Made by a program: the position numbers and the translations under genes. A model generated the notes under the pieces. It had not been told where the DNA came from, searched no databases, and worked only from the letters and a program-made list of their open reading frames with translations. Shown in pieces: positions 6,515 to 27,171 of a stretch of 44,682 nucleotides of DNA. The first letter of the stretch is position 1, and each line of letters starts with the position of its first letter. This stretch comes from Bacteroidia bacterium (GTDB taxonomy: Bacteria; Bacteroidota; Bacteroidia; CAIKAF01): the NCBI GenBank assembly GCA_030427255.1, contig JAUHWY010000027.1, positions 1-44,682 of the forward strand. Direction: 5' to 3'.

Positions 6515-6549
6515 AATTTACAGAGGCGAAATTAGAGCAAACACAATGA
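6511..6549 (+). pseudogene. HsdR-like gene start, copy 1 (12 codons)
   Basis: GTG at 6511 overlaps the RhuM stop and opens VKFTEAKLEQTQ, then TGA. The first ten codons are the same as those of the HsdR-like fragment at 7901. The TGA overlaps the ATG of the AlbA_2 gene (ATGA at 6546). It is a scar showing that RhuM was once directly followed by an HsdR-like gene. Confidence 0.7.
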
Positions 6550-7904
6550 GCGAGCGCCAAAATATAGAATGGAAGCAAAGCTGGCACGATGACTACCTGA
6601 AGTGGGTATGCGGCTTTGCCAACGCCGTAGGCGGCACCATCTATATTGGTAAAGATGATGATGGCAATGTGGTGGGTTTGCCAGACTATCGTAATCTGGT
6701 TGAGAGCATTCCGCAGAAAATCCGCAATATGATGGGCATTATCTGCGACATTAATTTGCAGGAAGAAGCGGGAAAGAAGTTTATCGAAATCAAAGTCAAT
6801 CCATATTCGGTTCCTGTATCTCTAAGAGGCAGATACTATTATCGTTCGGGCAGTACTAAAATGGAATTGACCGGAGTAGAGCTCAATGAATTCTTACTCA
6901 AAAAAGCTGGTAAAACTTGGGATGACGTAATTGAAGAAGGAGCTTCAATTGCAGATATTGATGAGCTGAGCATTAATAAATTCATAGAAGACGGTAAAGA
7001 ACAGGGCAGATTGCCCGATACAACAGGTTTATCCACCCTTCAAATTCTGGATAAGCTTCGGTTGGTTGAAGATGAAAAACTAAAACGTGCAGCCGTCATT
7101 CTTTTCGGCAAAGACCCAAGTCGGTTTTTCCCAAATGTCACGGTAAAAATTGGTCGTTTCGGTACGGATGGTTCGGATTTGAAATTTCAGGAAATCTTAG
7201 AGGGAAACTTAGTGCATCTGCTCAATGAAATTCAAGTACAGCTCAATTACAAATTTCTAACTCGCCCTGTGAATTTTGCAGGAATGCACCGCATTGAAAA
7301 AGGTGCATATCCTGTTGCCGCCATTCGGGAAATGCTACTAAATGCCTTAGTCCATAAAACCTATATGGGTGCCGCCATACAAATAAGGGTATTTGATAAC
7401 AAGCTTTCTATTTGGAATGAGGGACTTCTTCCTCAAGGTATGGATATCAACAGCTTGAAGGCTGATCATAATTCAAGACCAAGAAACCCAATAATTGCCG
7501 ATGCTTGTTTTAAGGCAGGATATATCGATACTTGGGGTCGAGGCACCTTGAAGATTATCAATGCGTGTAAAGAAGCTGAACTTCCTGAACCTGAAATTAT
7601 TGAAAAAGATGGCGGTGTTCAGGTTACAATTTATAAAGTTCCTGATGGTGGTCAAGATGGTGGTCAAGATGGTGGTCAAGATGGTGGTCAAGATGGTGGT
7701 CAAGTGGCTAATCTAACTGACAGACAAAAAGAAGTTTATAATCTTATTGTTGCTAATCCTAAGGTTTCAAGAAAAGGACTTGCTGAACAACTTGGTATAA
7801 ATGAATCTGCAGTTCAAAAACATACTGATGCCCTAAAGAAGAAAAAAGTGATTGAAAGAGAAGGTGAAACAACTGGGCAGTGGAAAATAATTGGTAAGGG
7901 GTGA
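6546..7904 (+). CDS. AlbA_2/Schlafen-domain ATPase-like transcriptional regulator
   Basis: A 452-residue protein of the RecG-like/AlbA_2 regulator group. Residues 1-120 form the AlbA_2 (Schlafen-type) domain, starting SERQNIEWKQSW with FANAVGGTIYIGKDDDGNVVG. The middle (residues ~150-360) contains YPVAAIREMLLNALVHKTY and DTWGRGTLKIINAC, the signature of the associated HATPase-like domain. A linker of five GGQD-type repeats leads to a C-terminal winged helix (ANLTDRQKEVYNLIVANP, then SRKGLAEQLGINESAVQKHTDAL). Such genes often sit between hsdS and hsdR in type I restriction operons, which fits RhuM upstream and an HsdR-like start downstream. The start overlaps a 12-codon scar by 4 bp and its stop overlaps a GTG (GTGA). 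It is the only intact defence-linked gene in the island. DNA target unknown. Confidence 0.88.
   Translation: MSERQNIEWKQSWHDDYLKWVCGFANAVGGTIYIGKDDDGNVVGLPDYRNLVESIPQKIRNMMGIICDINLQEEAGKKFIEIKVNPYSVPVSLRGRYYYRSGSTKMELTGVELNEFLLKKAGKTWDDVIEEGASIADIDELSINKFIEDGKEQGRLPDTTGLSTLQILDKLRLVEDEKLKRAAVILFGKDPSRFFPNVTVKIGRFGTDGSDLKFQEILEGNLVHLLNEIQVQLNYKFLTRPVNFAGMHRIEKGAYPVAAIREMLLNALVHKTYMGAAIQIRVFDNKLSIWNEGLLPQGMDINSLKADHNSRPRNPIIADACFKAGYIDTWGRGTLKIINACKEAELPEPEIIEKDGGVQVTIYKVPDGGQDGGQDGGQDGGQDGGQVANLTDRQKEVYNLIVANPKVSRKGLAEQLGINESAVQKHTDALKKKKVIEREGETTGQWKIIGKG
7644..7703 (+). repeat. Five perfect 12-nt repeats encoding GGQD
   Basis: GATGGTGGTCAA is repeated five times without mismatch, encoding DGGQ units in the linker of the AlbA_2 protein. 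Unit gain or loss would keep frame and only change linker length. Gly-Gly-Gln linkers at this place are common in the family. Confidence 0.95.
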
Positions 7905-9700: not shown

Positions 9701-9708
9701 TACTTTTG
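9701..9708 (+). promoter_or_regulatory. -7 promoter box for the atp operon
   Basis: TACTTTTG matches the Bacteroidota -7 consensus TAnnTTTG exactly and lies 24 nt ahead of the GTG start of atpB. No clear -33 TTG is seen. Confidence 0.55.
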
Positions 9709-9732
9709 CCCCCGGAAAAACCGGAACAAGTT

Positions 9733-11159
<1,427 letters not shown>

Positions 11160-11167
11160 ACAGCAAT

Positions 11168-11210
11168 GGAAAAGGCCGCCGGCGGTTGGCCGGCGTTGCC
11201 TTTCCTTTTT
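11168..11210 (+). terminator. Hairpin with T-run between atpE and atpF
   Basis: GGAAAAGGC...GCCGGC pairs with GCCGGC...GCCTTTCC (11168-11205, loop GGTTG, one internal bulge) and is followed by five T and then A-rich DNA. It could be a partial terminator or an mRNA-stabilising 3' end giving extra atpE transcript, in line with the high copy number of subunit c. No measurement supports this yet. Confidence 0.5.
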
Positions 11211-11234
11211 AAAAAAACTTTATTCCATTAAGCC

Positions 11235-11735: not shown

Positions 11736-12308
11736 ATGAAAGGTTTTTCTACGGTAGCTAACCGATACGCAGGTGCCTTGCTGAGTTTGTCTAATGAGGC
11801 CAATTCCAGTCAGGTTATTGCTCAAGATTTCGCCTCCTTTTTGGACGTGTGGAATCAGAGCAGCGAAGTACGTAGCTTTTTAAAGAATCCTGTACTTCAG
11901 CCCGGGCTCAAAATTCCTTTTATTCAAGAGGCGTTTGGTAAGTCTTTTCAGGACTTGACCCTACGTTTTATGATAAAGATGGTCAGGGCTCGTAGGGCTT
12001 CCTTGTTGGGAGAAGTGGCCGAGTCTTTTGCCGCTCAATACCGCCGCCAGCAAAAGGTGTTGGAAGTGCAAGTGAAGTCTGCTGTGCCCCTTAGCGACAG
12101 CACTAGAAAAGCGATTCAAGATTGGGTGATGGGTCGTCCTGAATTCAGTGGATGGACATCCATTGCTCTGCATGAACAAGTACAAAGCGACCTTATTGGG
12201 GGGTTGGTGCTTCAGGTAGAAGGCCAGGAATTGGACCTTAGCTTGGAAAGAAAGCTGGAAGACTTTAGAAAGCAATTCAGCAAGAACCTTTACGTGGCAG
12301 ACTTTTAA
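11736..12308 (+). CDS. atpH: ATP synthase F1 subunit delta
   Basis: The 190-residue delta subunit that ties the b stalk to the top of the F1 head. The N-terminal helical domain begins STVANRYAGALLSLS. The C-terminal part has the family pattern VQSDLIGGLVLQVEGQELDLSLERKL. Normal length. It follows atpF by six nucleotides; 113 nt separate it from the next gene, unlike the tight spacing elsewhere in the operon. Confidence 0.94.
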   Translation: MKGFSTVANRYAGALLSLSNEANSSQVIAQDFASFLDVWNQSSEVRSFLKNPVLQPGLKIPFIQEAFGKSFQDLTLRFMIKMVRARRASLLGEVAESFAAQYRRQQKVLEVQVKSAVPLSDSTRKAIQDWVMGRPEFSGWTSIALHEQVQSDLIGGLVLQVEGQELDLSLERKLEDFRKQFSKNLYVADF

Positions 12309-12369
12309 TTGGTAAACTGGACTAAATAGCTTATATTCCGATGATAACCCAGCACAATACGTCAAGGTC

Positions 12370-12389
12370 CACTTTTCCTAGGAAAAGTG
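12370..12389. promoter_or_regulatory. Perfect 20-bp palindrome upstream of the inserted atp-operon gene
   Basis: CACTTTTCCTAGGAAAAGTG reads the same on both strands, 32 bp before the ATG of the exported-protein gene. There is no T-run, so it is not a standard terminator. It could be an operator or an RNA-processing hairpin. Confidence 0.5.
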
Positions 12390-12421
12390 CATTTGGCCTG
12401 TGCTCCAAAAAATCAATAGGA

Positions 12422-12928
12422 ATGATGCGAACTGTTTGTGTAAGCCTTTTTACTGTTTTGTTGAGCTTTGCTTTTAGCAAGCAAAGTTTTGCCCAATTGA
12501 CTGCCGATGTTAAAATCAAAAAGAACACGGTAATTATAGACGAAGTTCCGGCCTTTGAGATTTTTCCGGATGCCGATGGCAATGGTTTTGATTTGCTCAC
12601 GCTCAAAGGCGACACTTTAATGAAGGTGCGTCACCGAGCCTATAAAAATCCGGACAACTATACGCCACAGAACCCAACGGGTCAAGTAGATTATTACGAG
12701 CTTATTTTCCCCACCTTGGGCAATAAATCTTGCGAATTGCCTTATCCTATGGCACCGAGCAAGCGCGTAGTGGTTAACGAAATTGTAGTTCCCAACGATG
12801 TGATTTGGGACAACGAAGTGGATGATGGCGCTGCAGACATCATGGTAAACACTTACGGTAAAGACTTTTCTGCAGCACGCGACACCGTGGTGCGCAAATA
12901 CGGAAGTAAAAAAATCATCATCAAATAA
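12422..12928 (+). CDS. Exported protein of unknown function inside the ATP synthase operon
   Basis: A 168-residue protein starting [25 protein letters not shown], a clear signal peptide with cleavage after FAQ; an upstream ATG at 12341 would bury this signal, so 12422 (or 12425) is preferred. The mature part is beta-rich and polar ([55 protein letters not shown]) and ends KKIIIK. No family was recognised. It lies in the same orientation between atpH and atpA, 11 nt before atpA, so it must be co-transcribed with the complex, although a periplasmic or outer-membrane protein has no known role in F1Fo. A 20-bp perfect palindrome precedes it. Confidence 0.75.
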
Positions 12929-12939
12929 CCTTTAGAGGT

Positions 12940-14526
12940 ATGGCAGAAATAAAGCCCGCAGAAGTAACCGCAATCCTACGTCAGCAATTATCAGGCATGG
13001 CGCAGGAAACCCAACTCGAAGAAGTGGGAACCGTGCTCCAAGTAGGTGACGGTGTAGCGCGGATTTATGGCTTGAACAACGTAGAAGCCGGTGAGCTCAT
13101 TGAGTTTTCCAATGGTTTGCGTGCCATTGTACTTAACTTGGAAGAAGACAATGTTGGAGCCGTATTGTTGGGCGAGTCCAAAGGCGTTAAAGAGGGCGAT
13201 ACCGTGCGCCGAACCAACCGCATTGCGTCTATCAATGTAGGCGAAGGCATGCTCGGAAGGGTAATCAATACCTTGGGTGACCCGATTGACGGCAAAGGCC
13301 CCATTCAAGGCGAGGTTTACGAAATGCCTTTGGAGCGCAAAGCTCCCGGAGTTATTTTCCGCCAACCTGTGAACGAACCTCTACAAACCGGTATCAAGGC
13401 CATCGATGCTATGATTCCTATCGGTAGAGGACAAAGGGAATTGATTATTGGTGACCGCCAAACCGGTAAAACTGCCGTGGCCATCGATACCATTATTAAT
13501 CAAAAGGAATTCTTTGACCGCGGAGAACCTGTTTTCTGTATTTACGTAGCGATTGGGCAAAAGTCCAGCACCGTGGCCGGAATCGCTAAGGTGCTTGAGG
13601 AAAAAGGTGCCTTGGATTATACTGTAATCGTGTCTTCTTCGGCTTCTGATCCTGCGCCTATGCAGTTTTATGCTCCCTTTGCCGGAGCTGCCATTGGCGA
13701 ATTTTTCCGCGATACAGGTCGTCCCGCATTGATTGTATACGATGACTTGTCTAAACAAGCCGTAGCTTACCGTGAGGTGTCTTTGTTGCTTCGTCGTCCT
13801 CCGGGCCGTGAAGCTTATCCCGGTGACGTATTCTATTTGCACTCCCGCTTGCTTGAGCGTGCCGCCAAGGTCATCAGCAACGATGAAATTGCCAAAGGCA
13901 TGAACGATTTGCCTGCATCGCTAAAAGATGTGGTAAAAGGTGGCGGAAGCTTAACGGCTCTTCCTATTATTGAAACTCAAGCGGGCGACGTTTCGGCCTA
14001 TATTCCTACCAATGTAATTTCAATTACCGACGGTCAGATTTTCTTGGAGTCCAACCTGTTTAACTCCGGGGTACGTCCTGCCATTAACGTGGGTATTTCC
14101 GTTAGCCGGGTAGGTGGTTCTGCTCAAATTAAGCCCATGAAGAAGGTGGCCGGTACGCTAAAGCTTGACCAAGCTCAGTACCGCGAATTGGAAGCGTTTT
14201 CTAAGTTTGGTTCAGACCTTGACGCCTCTACCAAATCGGTGTTGGACAAAGGGGCCCGCAACGTGGAAATCCTTAAACAAGGGCAGTTCCGTCCTATGGC
14301 CGTTGAAAAGCAAGTAGCTATGATTTTTGCCGGTACCCGCAACCTGTTGCGCGAGGTGCCTGTGAAAAAAGTAAAGGAGTACCAAGATGCTTATTTGGCT
14401 GCCTTAGAAGCTTCGCACCAAGATATTTTGGACCGCATCCGCAAGGGTGAATACAGCGATGAAATCACGGGTGTACTTGAAAAAGTAGCCAAAGGAGTAG
14501 CAAAAACTTTCGCAACCGAAGCTTAA
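12940..14526 (+). CDS. atpA: ATP synthase F1 subunit alpha
   Basis: The 528-residue regulatory nucleotide-binding subunit of the F1 head. Walker A is [11 protein letters not shown] (residues ~172-182), the Walker B region is [16 protein letters not shown], and the conserved [27 protein letters not shown] segment carrying the arginine finger is intact (broken here as [10 protein letters not shown], then GVRPAINVG). Normal length and unbroken. The start lies 11 nt after the inserted exported-protein gene and the stop 9 nt before atpG. Confidence 0.98.
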
Positions 14527-14535
14527 TTTAAGGCC

Positions 14536-15414
14536 ATGCCGAACTTAAAAGAAGTCCGAAATCGAATTACTTCGGTCAATTCGACCCGACAAATTACCAG
14601 TGCTATGAAGCTGGTGTCGGCAGCAAAGCTTCGTCGTGCACAAGACGCCATTACCAATATGCGTCCTTACGCCGAAAAGCTAAGCGAGGTTATGGGTAAT
14701 TTGAGTCAAGCCGCCGAAGGAAGCGATAGCCCCTATATGGAGCAGCGCGAGGTGGAACACATTACCTTGGTTTTGGTAACGTCTAACCGTGGTCTTTGTG
14801 GTGCCTTCAACGCCCAAATCATTCGCCGTGCTAAAGTCTTGGTTTCTACTACCTATGCTGATTACGCCAAAAGCGGCAAGTTGAGCTTGGTTACGGTTGG
14901 GAAAAAGGCATCGTCTTGGGCGGCGCAAAGTGGTTTAAACCACCAAGCCTCTTACGATGAGCTTTACACCGATTTGAGCTTCCCCAATGTGGTACCTGCT
15001 GCGGAATCATTGATGCAGCAGTTTGCTTTGGGCGAAACAGATAAGGTGGTCCTTATTTACAACCGTTTTGTAACCGCTGCCGCTCAATTGGTAACCGAAG
15101 AGCAAATGCTTCCTGTTATGCCTCCCCAAAGCACGGAGGCTAAAGGAAATGGGGTAGAGTATATTTACGAGCCCGACAAGGCCAGTATTTTGGAAAACTT
15201 GATTCCCATTAGCCTTAAAACACAATTTTTTAAGGTGTTGCTTGACAGTCATGCTTCGGAACACGGAGCACGGATGACGGCTATGCATAAGGCAACCGAT
15301 AATGCGGGAGAATTGCTCAAAAGCCTTAAACTTAGCTACAACAAAGCGAGGCAAGCGGCCATTACCAACGAAATTTTGGAAATTGTGGCCGGTGCGGAAG
15401 CCTTGGAGAGCTAA
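14536..15414 (+). CDS. atpG: ATP synthase F1 subunit gamma
   Basis: The 292-residue central rotor shaft. The N-terminal helix has the family signature NSTRQITSAMKLVSAAKLRRAQ, the middle has TSNRGLCGAFN, and the C-terminal helix ends KARQAAITNEILEIVAGAEAL. It is the last gene of this cluster and is closed by a strong terminator. atpD and atpC do not follow; in Bacteroidota they commonly form a separate locus. Confidence 0.97.
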   Translation: MPNLKEVRNRITSVNSTRQITSAMKLVSAAKLRRAQDAITNMRPYAEKLSEVMGNLSQAAEGSDSPYMEQREVEHITLVLVTSNRGLCGAFNAQIIRRAKVLVSTTYADYAKSGKLSLVTVGKKASSWAAQSGLNHQASYDELYTDLSFPNVVPAAESLMQQFALGETDKVVLIYNRFVTAAAQLVTEEQMLPVMPPQSTEAKGNGVEYIYEPDKASILENLIPISLKTQFFKVLLDSHASEHGARMTAMHKATDNAGELLKSLKLSYNKARQAAITNEILEIVAGAEALES

Positions 15415-15435
15415 GGCCAAACTATACCATAAAAG

Positions 15436-15459
15436 ACCTGCTTTGGCAGGTTTTTTTTT
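15436..15459 (+). terminator. Intrinsic terminator of the atp operon
   Basis: A perfect 6-bp stem ACCTGC / GCAGGT with loop TTTG is followed by a run of nine T, 22 bp after atpG. Confidence 0.9.
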
Positions 15460-26695: not shown

Positions 26696-26781
26696 GTTAG
26701 AGAAGTGAACCTGGGCTCATTAAATTTTAAGTCTTAGAGTTCCCGAAATTTGTTTAATTTGTTAGAAACGACACATTTCCT

Positions 26782-27171
26782 ATGAAAAGTATTGGCATTT
26801 GGATAGACTCAAAAGAAGCTTTAATTAGCGACGGAAAGGAAGTATTGCATCATATACACTCCGAAGTGGAAGGGCAAGAAAGAATTCCGGGAGAGGGAAA
26901 AGACGGTACGCGTTTTGGTACCCAGTTTGTAGATCCCCAAAAGAAACGTGATGCTCGTCGCGAGTCGGCAGAGCAAGCCTTTATTGAGGAGGTTTCGAGT
27001 TTGGTAGGAACTGCGGAGCAGGTAGTGGCCTTTGGGCCTGCGCATATGAAGCAGCAACTGGCCAAGGCTCTAGAATCGATGCACCATGGTCCCAAAGTAT
27101 TTGTAGAAACTGCCGACCAAATGACGGAGAACCAAAAAGTAGCTTGGGTTCGAAATTACTTTGAAGGCTAA
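26782..27171 (+). CDS. Putative bacterial eRF1/Dom34-like protein
   Basis: A 129-residue cytosolic protein. The start MKSIGIWIDSKEALISDG, the middle VSSLVGTAEQVVAFGPAHMK and the end VETADQMTENQKVAWVRNYF follow a pattern seen in small Bacteroidota proteins related to the second domain of eRF1/Dom34 (baeRF-like). In that family the proteins are thought to touch ribosome function or stress recovery; which applies here is unknown. The stop TAA is immediately followed by the ATG of the symporter gene (0-nt spacing), so translation is likely coupled. Family call from memory of the pattern. Confidence 0.55.
   Translation: MKSIGIWIDSKEALISDGKEVLHHIHSEVEGQERIPGEGKDGTRFGTQFVDPQKKRDARRESAEQAFIEEVSSLVGTAEQVVAFGPAHMKQQLAKALESMHHGPKVFVETADQMTENQKVAWVRNYFEG

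Follow-up and report, generated by a model that had tools for sequence, protein, structure and literature searches.

Why should a gene for an exported protein stand in the middle of an ATP synthase operon? In the window, by which we mean the whole stretch of 44,682 nucleotides analysed here, and which is the entire contig C51 of the 3.2-Mb genome G000, such a gene, called X below, lies between atpH and atpA. An earlier note on this DNA had described X as coding for a 168-residue protein with a signal peptide and no recognised family, and the coordinates as well as searches of Pfam and NCBIfam agree with that description. The note had also placed X in the operon's direction, 11 nt ahead of atpA, and had pointed to a perfect 20-bp palindrome at 12370-12389 within the 113-nt gap that precedes it; on re-reading both statements are exact. 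What we ask is whether X has any business with the ATP synthase, and what the palindrome in front of it is for.

The X gene and its surroundings

As read from the window sequence and the list of open reading frames, the stop codon of atpH (delta subunit, OSCP; 11736-12308, plus strand; Pfam OSCP, 2.8e-34) ends at 12308 and atpA (alpha subunit; 12940-14526, plus strand; Pfam ATP-synt_ab, 4e-76) starts at 12940. Between them an open reading frame of 195 codons (12341-12928) contains the 168-codon form of X, which begins at the ATG at 12422 (12422-12928, plus strand), ends 11 nt upstream of atpA and codes for a protein that belongs to an unnamed family and is predicted to be exported. The stretch from the atpH stop to this signal-peptide ATG is a leader of 113 nt (12309-12421, plus strand). 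Read by eye, the predicted signal peptide of X has 24 residues (12422-12493, plus strand) with cleavage after SFA, and in X as in the aligned family members it is clear and of the classical type. Downstream of atpA follows atpG (gamma subunit; 14536-15414, plus strand; Pfam ATP-synt, 1.3e-97), and directly 3' of atpG a terminator-like hairpin with a T run (15431-15456, plus strand) is likely to be the end of the atp operon. The names atpH, atpA and atpG come from Pfam, while atpB, atpE and atpF were assigned by reading the sequences. The position and orientation of X suggest that it is co-transcribed with atpA.

Two other genes of the window drew our attention by eye. AtpB (9706-10884) is long, 392 codons counted from the first possible start, and has a hydrophobic start followed by a His- and Asp-rich hydrophilic stretch ahead of the membrane part; this stretch is possibly a periplasmic domain. 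A 452-codon gene at 6546-7904 carries a five-fold in-frame repeat of GGQD type.

Conservation of X and selection on it

Is X found at the same place in relatives? The earlier note had proposed this check and would have taken absence from all close relatives as the sign of a chance insertion; in fact all six genomes of the genus (G000-G005) have X between atpH and atpA, and G008, from another genus of the same taxonomic family, carries it there too. A search with X alone over 60 relatives at E 0.01 matched ten genomes, the six of the genus among them, and a single-protein scan of genome contigs with X gave one locus, in G004. The G008 gene codes for a signal-peptide protein of 157 codons and begins 9 nt after atpH. 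A member of 179 codons lies 25 nt after atpH in G036, from a distant family, and the members of both G008 and G036 were found by profiles built without them.

Altogether we read the atpH-atpA region in 114 genomes (the window, 56 loci and a further 57 loci from the family of G036). An X-family member is present in eight of these regions, six of which belong to one genus. Other reading frames occupy the slot in two: a 99-codon frame with a signal-peptide-like start, unmatched by the X-family profiles, in G020 (locus L060), and a frame of about 85 codons, antitoxin-like by eye and with repeated sequence on its flanks, in the 848-nt gap of G397 (locus L217). A gap of 105-246 nt is free of such a frame in G007, G011, G022 and G428, and in 98 of the 114 regions the gap is shorter than 100 nt; the last two are G015, in which the atpH frame is broken, and G053, which has no nearby atpA. 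In the 60-genome sample G012, G046 and G050 gave no atpH match, and 19 of 113 atpA starts, which fell outside the start pattern, were taken from the sequence by reading. From these counts we conclude that the slot is normally empty and that X is a fixed feature of the genus, with two outliers beyond it. Among the 16 genomes of the taxonomic family, eight have any match (G006 becomes a ninth with a wider profile) and seven have it in the slot; besides G008, none of the other readable genera of this family has a member there.

Selection on X was measured in two close pairs. In its mature part dN/dS is 0.03 between G000 and G004, with 4 nonsynonymous and 27 synonymous differences, and 0.02 between G002 and G003, with about 1.5 and 22.5. 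Over the whole gene the value is 0.041 for X, to be set beside 0.011 for atpA, 0.037 for atpB, 0.023 for atpF, 0.029 for atpG and 0.059 for atpH, the last at a dS of 1.38, which is near saturation; atpE is without any protein change. Between G000 and G004 the X proteins are 97% identical and the AtpH proteins 87%. These identities together with the dN/dS values exclude a dead or very recent insertion, and on such comparative evidence X is a real, functional and strongly constrained gene.

The leader of X and the choice of start codon

The palindrome CACTTTTCCTAGGAAAAGTG (12370-12389), perfect over its 20 bp, makes up the inner helix and the loop of a predicted stem-loop in which three stacked helices comprise 20 pairs (12351-12404, plus strand). 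Single-base shuffling of the leader, done 20,000 times, yields a perfect palindrome of 20 bp in a fraction of 0.0002. The leader counterparts in G001-G005 measure 105, 101, 101, 113 and 105 nt, and a long stem-loop is predicted at about the same place in all six leaders (101-113 nt), which amount to four lineages and whose sequences and loops are largely different. Most relatives have just a short spacer where the genus has this long leader. Compared with shuffles, the leaders fold with p values of 0.11 (G000), 0.11 (G001), 0.004 (G002), 0.006 (G003), 0.066 (G004) and 0.012 (G005), the first two falling short of significance when taken singly; for a slightly longer stretch of G000 the figure is 2 of 200 shuffles.

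Pairs were counted between close leaders, and an alignment of all six made with MAFFT, which is not structure-aware, was kept out of the counts. Between G000 and G004, two of the 20 pairs have changed on both sides, one has changed on one side and none is broken; the two compensatory pairs lie side by side, and a single event could account for both. Slid versions of this pairing show no two-sided change, and 116 of 500 shuffles reach the value, a control by which two sequences cannot be separated. Between G002 and G003, three of 23 pairs have changed on one side and again none is broken. Given the substitutions in the stem, the chance of finding no broken pair is 0.046 for the first comparison and 0.044 for the second, and it rises to 0.15 and 0.16 when substitutions may fall anywhere in the leader. 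The earlier note had thought that the palindrome might regulate X or process its transcript. Since it is the pairing and not the sequence that is kept among the leaders, a conserved DNA operator is disfavoured, and the recurrent pairing lends moderate support, on modest statistics, to the palindrome being the inner part of an RNA hairpin.

Two other identities for this element were rejected. An intrinsic terminator would call for a T tail, which the leader hairpin does not have, and there is no plus-strand terminator site in 12200-13000. A dispersed palindromic repeat of REP or MITE type should have many copies, and with up to 2 mismatches allowed the 3.2-Mb genome has one site; at 3 mismatches the window gains a second, imperfect one at 26772-26791. 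Rfam at its gathering thresholds has no match in the window. The leaders of G008 and G036 are only 9 and 25 nt long, so that an X-type gene does not in general require the hairpin.

Could the leader itself be coding? It may be translated, because the frame upstream of X is open in all six genomes: an ATG at 12341, in frame and followed by 27 open codons (12341-12421, plus strand), would, if it were the real start, turn the hairpin region into coding sequence and place an extension of 27-29 residues before the hydrophobic part of the signal peptide. In every genome of the genus this upstream ATG is in frame and open (27-29 codons), with distances that differ by multiples of three, and the joint chance of an open frame over the four lineages, if these are independent, is 0.004. 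GAGG stands shortly ahead of the ATG in G001, G002, G003 and G005. However, dN/dS in the leader is 0.55 and 0.43 (few sites, two close pairs), compared with 0.03 and 0.02 for the mature protein, comparison by eye between the subclades finds no clear conserved residues in the extension, and the members of G008 and G036 begin directly at the signal peptide. We regard the upstream start as possible, if rather doubtful.

The family of X and where its members lie

X has no Pfam family at E 1 and no NCBIfam family at E 10. Weak Pfam and NCBIfam matches of its relatives fall short of the curated cut-offs, and a sequence search of the PDB returned nothing credible for the family, its one match being an antibody chain at E 0.19, which we discard. 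Profiles do find relatives. One of nine members matches at least 24 of 295 genomes of the class at E 0.001 and one of fifteen members at least 34 of 395 at E 1e-5, both lower bounds, since each survey scored 9-12 candidates per genome. With the first 18 residues removed, leave-out profiles detect members at E 1e-13 to 1e-31, while the best shuffled sequence reaches 0.03-0.28, from which we conclude that the family is real; when the genus members themselves are left out of the profile (family profile A7), it still detects them at 1.5e-17 to 2.7e-15. A few weak matches look driven by the signal peptide alone: that in G079 reads as a glutathione-peroxidase-like protein, and those in G146 and G397 cover the first part only.

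The members share what reads by eye as a signal peptide, then 'KIKxxxD.V.VDG...F.I' and a strand around 'L.G..L', and towards the C-terminus 'G.L......F....G', often with a final IIIx; a Tyr is invariant across the 15 rows of the alignment. Some frames, of 259-291 residues, consist of this domain and a long C-terminal part. An AlphaFold run with two sequences gave a pLDDT of 40, too low to inform on the fold. By these searches the X family is an unnamed family of putatively exported Bacteroidota proteins in the databases covered, and X, judged by its signal peptide, is probably a small envelope protein in the periplasm.

We inspected 58 loci of the family, some places having been fetched twice, and 15 of them adjoin atp genes, all in G000-G005, G008 and G036; five matches without a locus (G006, G033:C164, G146 and two in G255) are outside these 58. 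Other members lie after murI (by eye) or adjoin a superoxide dismutase gene, and further neighbours include an M48 peptidase, a metallo-beta-lactamase-fold gene and phosphatidylserine decarboxylase; 20 neighbour proteins were scanned, 6 of them without a Pfam family. In G321 a member of 278 codons (locus L163, 1111-1944, minus strand) is found between an accB-like biotin-carrier gene and an accC-like biotin-carboxylase gene, which shows that atpH and atpA are not the only pair of core genes between which the family has settled. Nor are all members in operons, since that of G010 is convergent with psd and that of G043 divergent from lepA.

How often, then, has the family entered the atpH-atpA slot? 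A tree of 26 members, among them five of the six from the genus, needs three changes for the atp-located genes. A topology that joins all atp-located members in a single clade is rejected (AU p 0.0023); the genus grouped with G036 is rejected weakly (0.04) and G008 grouped with G036 is rejected (0.007), while the genus grouped with G008 is not (0.18), and the placement of G008 is unsure because of long branches. In the family of G036, 5 of 60 genomes have any match, and G300 and G436, from the genus of G036, have no match and atpH-atpA gaps of 59 and 16 nt. Thus the slot has probably been filled at least twice, and the tree favours a separate arrival in G036. Under random placement one more landing in the same gap has a chance of about 1% (our own estimate, from 29 matches outside the taxonomic family and some 3000 gene gaps), a coincidence small enough to keep a connection with the ATP synthase alive.

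A second hairpin, between atpE and atpF

Among the gaps that served us as controls, the one from atpE to atpF (11160-11234) proved to have a strong hairpin at 11167-11205. Its pentaloop is GGTTG, and GATTG in G001, G002, G003 and G005. By automatic scan, G[GA]TTG stands in a stem in 31 of 51 atpE-atpF gaps, and in the family of G036 at 30 of 57 loci, three of which proved on reading to be misplaced; in many of the remaining gaps there is a hairpin whose loop is different, and G045 lacks any. The covariation alignment (A8) takes in 40 of 59 distinct hairpins, leaving out the three misplaced ones and 16 others. In these 40, all 12 pairs vary on both sides and 90.6% of cells pair, a figure inflated by the picking of rows for having the stem; the covariation score reaches 1.008, while shuffles give 0.249 and slid controls no more than 0.241.

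A covariance model run over 60 whole genomes at E 0.1 matched 33, several of which had supplied rows of the model, and missed 27. Judged by the positions of atpH, 30 of its 40 matches lie at the atp locus, and the best match lies there in 30 of the 33 genomes, the exceptions being G029, G045 and G057. In 873 kb of loci, partly redundant, there are 19 further hairpins with a GGTTG loop, all of them in the 2-kb fragments that precede atpA in genomes of the G036 family, and where, by distance, the atpE-atpF gap would be expected. Rfam has no match for this hairpin, and nothing on it appears in the titles and abstract openings of the papers that literature searches brought up. It may act in processing, stability or attenuation so as to favour the c subunit, may bear on the making of unequal subunit numbers, and may merit more attention than X.

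Discussion

We favour, with somewhat better than even confidence, the reading that X is an envelope protein that rides on a housekeeping operon and is independent of the ATP synthase, and that its leader is an mRNA stem-loop that separates X, atpA and atpG from what lies upstream. This reading starts from the position of X, its conservation in the genus, the purifying selection, the homology and the recurrent predicted stem-loop. The genes of the family are scattered over varied places, several of them within or directly after housekeeping genes, and one would have entered the atpH-atpA junction no later than the ancestor of the genus, in the operon's direction, and would then have been kept. 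X would be produced whenever the ATP synthase is, yet its work in the envelope would not depend on that enzyme. The stretch ahead of X would fold as a long mRNA stem-loop, its structure kept while its sequence changes, and as an element of processing, stability or translation spacing it would most likely set X, atpA and atpG apart from the cistrons before them, either in translation or in decay. What speaks against a mere passenger is that the same family is found in the same slot in two distant lineages, which hints at something more.

Could X instead be a periplasmic partner of the ATP synthase? It would then contact the periplasmic face of the enzyme, for instance at the N-terminal region of AtpB, would serve its assembly, stability or regulation, and would be co-expressed with it on that account. 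X is constrained much as a subunit is, its dN/dS falling within the range of the five atp genes compared with it (0.011-0.059), the family reached the slot in the genus and, apparently independently, in G036, and AtpB has by eye a long hydrophilic N-terminal stretch after its hydrophobic start. However, just half of the genomes of the taxonomic family have any match, seven of the 16 having it in the slot; the other inspected members, that of G036 excepted, are away from atp genes; the two congeners of G036 have short gaps and no match; and one member sits in the accB-accC pair. We consider a partner of this kind unlikely. As to a subunit of the F1Fo enzyme, X matches no known subunit family at E 1 in Pfam or E 10 in NCBIfam, its family occupies eight of 114 atpH-atpA regions, and we do not read it as one; a direct role at the enzyme is possible and is not the role that we favour. 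The idea in the earlier note of an exported protein tied to ATP synthase expression is thus retained in one half, co-transcription being suggested by position, and weakened in the other, the tie to the enzyme being weak because the members inspected, apart from those of the genus, G008 and G036, are found at other places, one of them between the accB-like and accC-like genes, and because the other readable genera of the taxonomic family have no member in the slot.

A bolder version would have the family recruited at least twice independently to the atpH-atpA junction in order to act on the ATP synthase from the periplasm, with the hairpin of the genus setting the dose of X relative to the alpha subunit; we think this quite unlikely. 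Less probable again is that the palindrome serves X as a DNA operator or promoter element. Its perfect two-fold symmetry would suit such a role, and 12200-13000 holds three sigma-70-like sites, among them 12309-12337, where shuffles give 1.0 (sd 1.0). However, the five other leaders keep the pairing and not the sequence of the palindrome, its genomic site is single at up to 2 mismatches, and the TAnnTTTG box, a promoter motif of Bacteroidota, is absent from all six leaders, so that we hold this role to be very improbable. That X is a chance insertion or a decaying gene without function, as its absence from the slot in most genomes read might suggest, is contradicted by dN/dS values of 0.02-0.04 and by its presence in every genus genome, and is almost certainly wrong.

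A gene that stands in one of the best conserved bacterial operons, is present in every examined genome of the genus and is strongly constrained must matter to these cells. Should X touch the ATP synthase, that enzyme would have a periplasmic factor in it; if it does not, it would be a case of exported proteins riding housekeeping operons.

Comparison with known systems

Among the papers that literature searches brought up, no title concerns a gene between atpH and atpA in Bacteroidota. Accessory genes are found in atp operons in the form of atpI (uncI) and atpZ, which code for small inner-membrane proteins and lie near atpB. X resembles them as a non-subunit gene among ATP synthase genes, its co-transcription being suggested by position, and differs from them in having a signal peptide, in lying between atpH and atpA, and in that most of its inspected relatives are elsewhere. 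The secretion-monitor genes secM, vemP and mifM offer a second comparison, for they too encode a small exported protein directly upstream of a core gene and in the same direction. Unlike in a SecM-type arrest peptide, however, the C-terminal strand of X is common to members located elsewhere, which counts against arrest; no atpA-linked arrest motif is apparent in X, because its C-terminal IIIK resembles the ends of members far from atpA.

Bacterial atp operons have intercistronic processing or stability hairpins, and the predicted hairpin in the leader of X is like these in being a stem-loop between atp cistrons. It is unlike them in that it has been seen only in the genus with the long leader and has no T tail. 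The GGUUG hairpin between atpE and atpF lies inside the same atp cluster as the hairpin between atpH and X, and yet the two differ: the former occurs in many families of the class with a nearly fixed loop, whereas the loops of the latter are variable.
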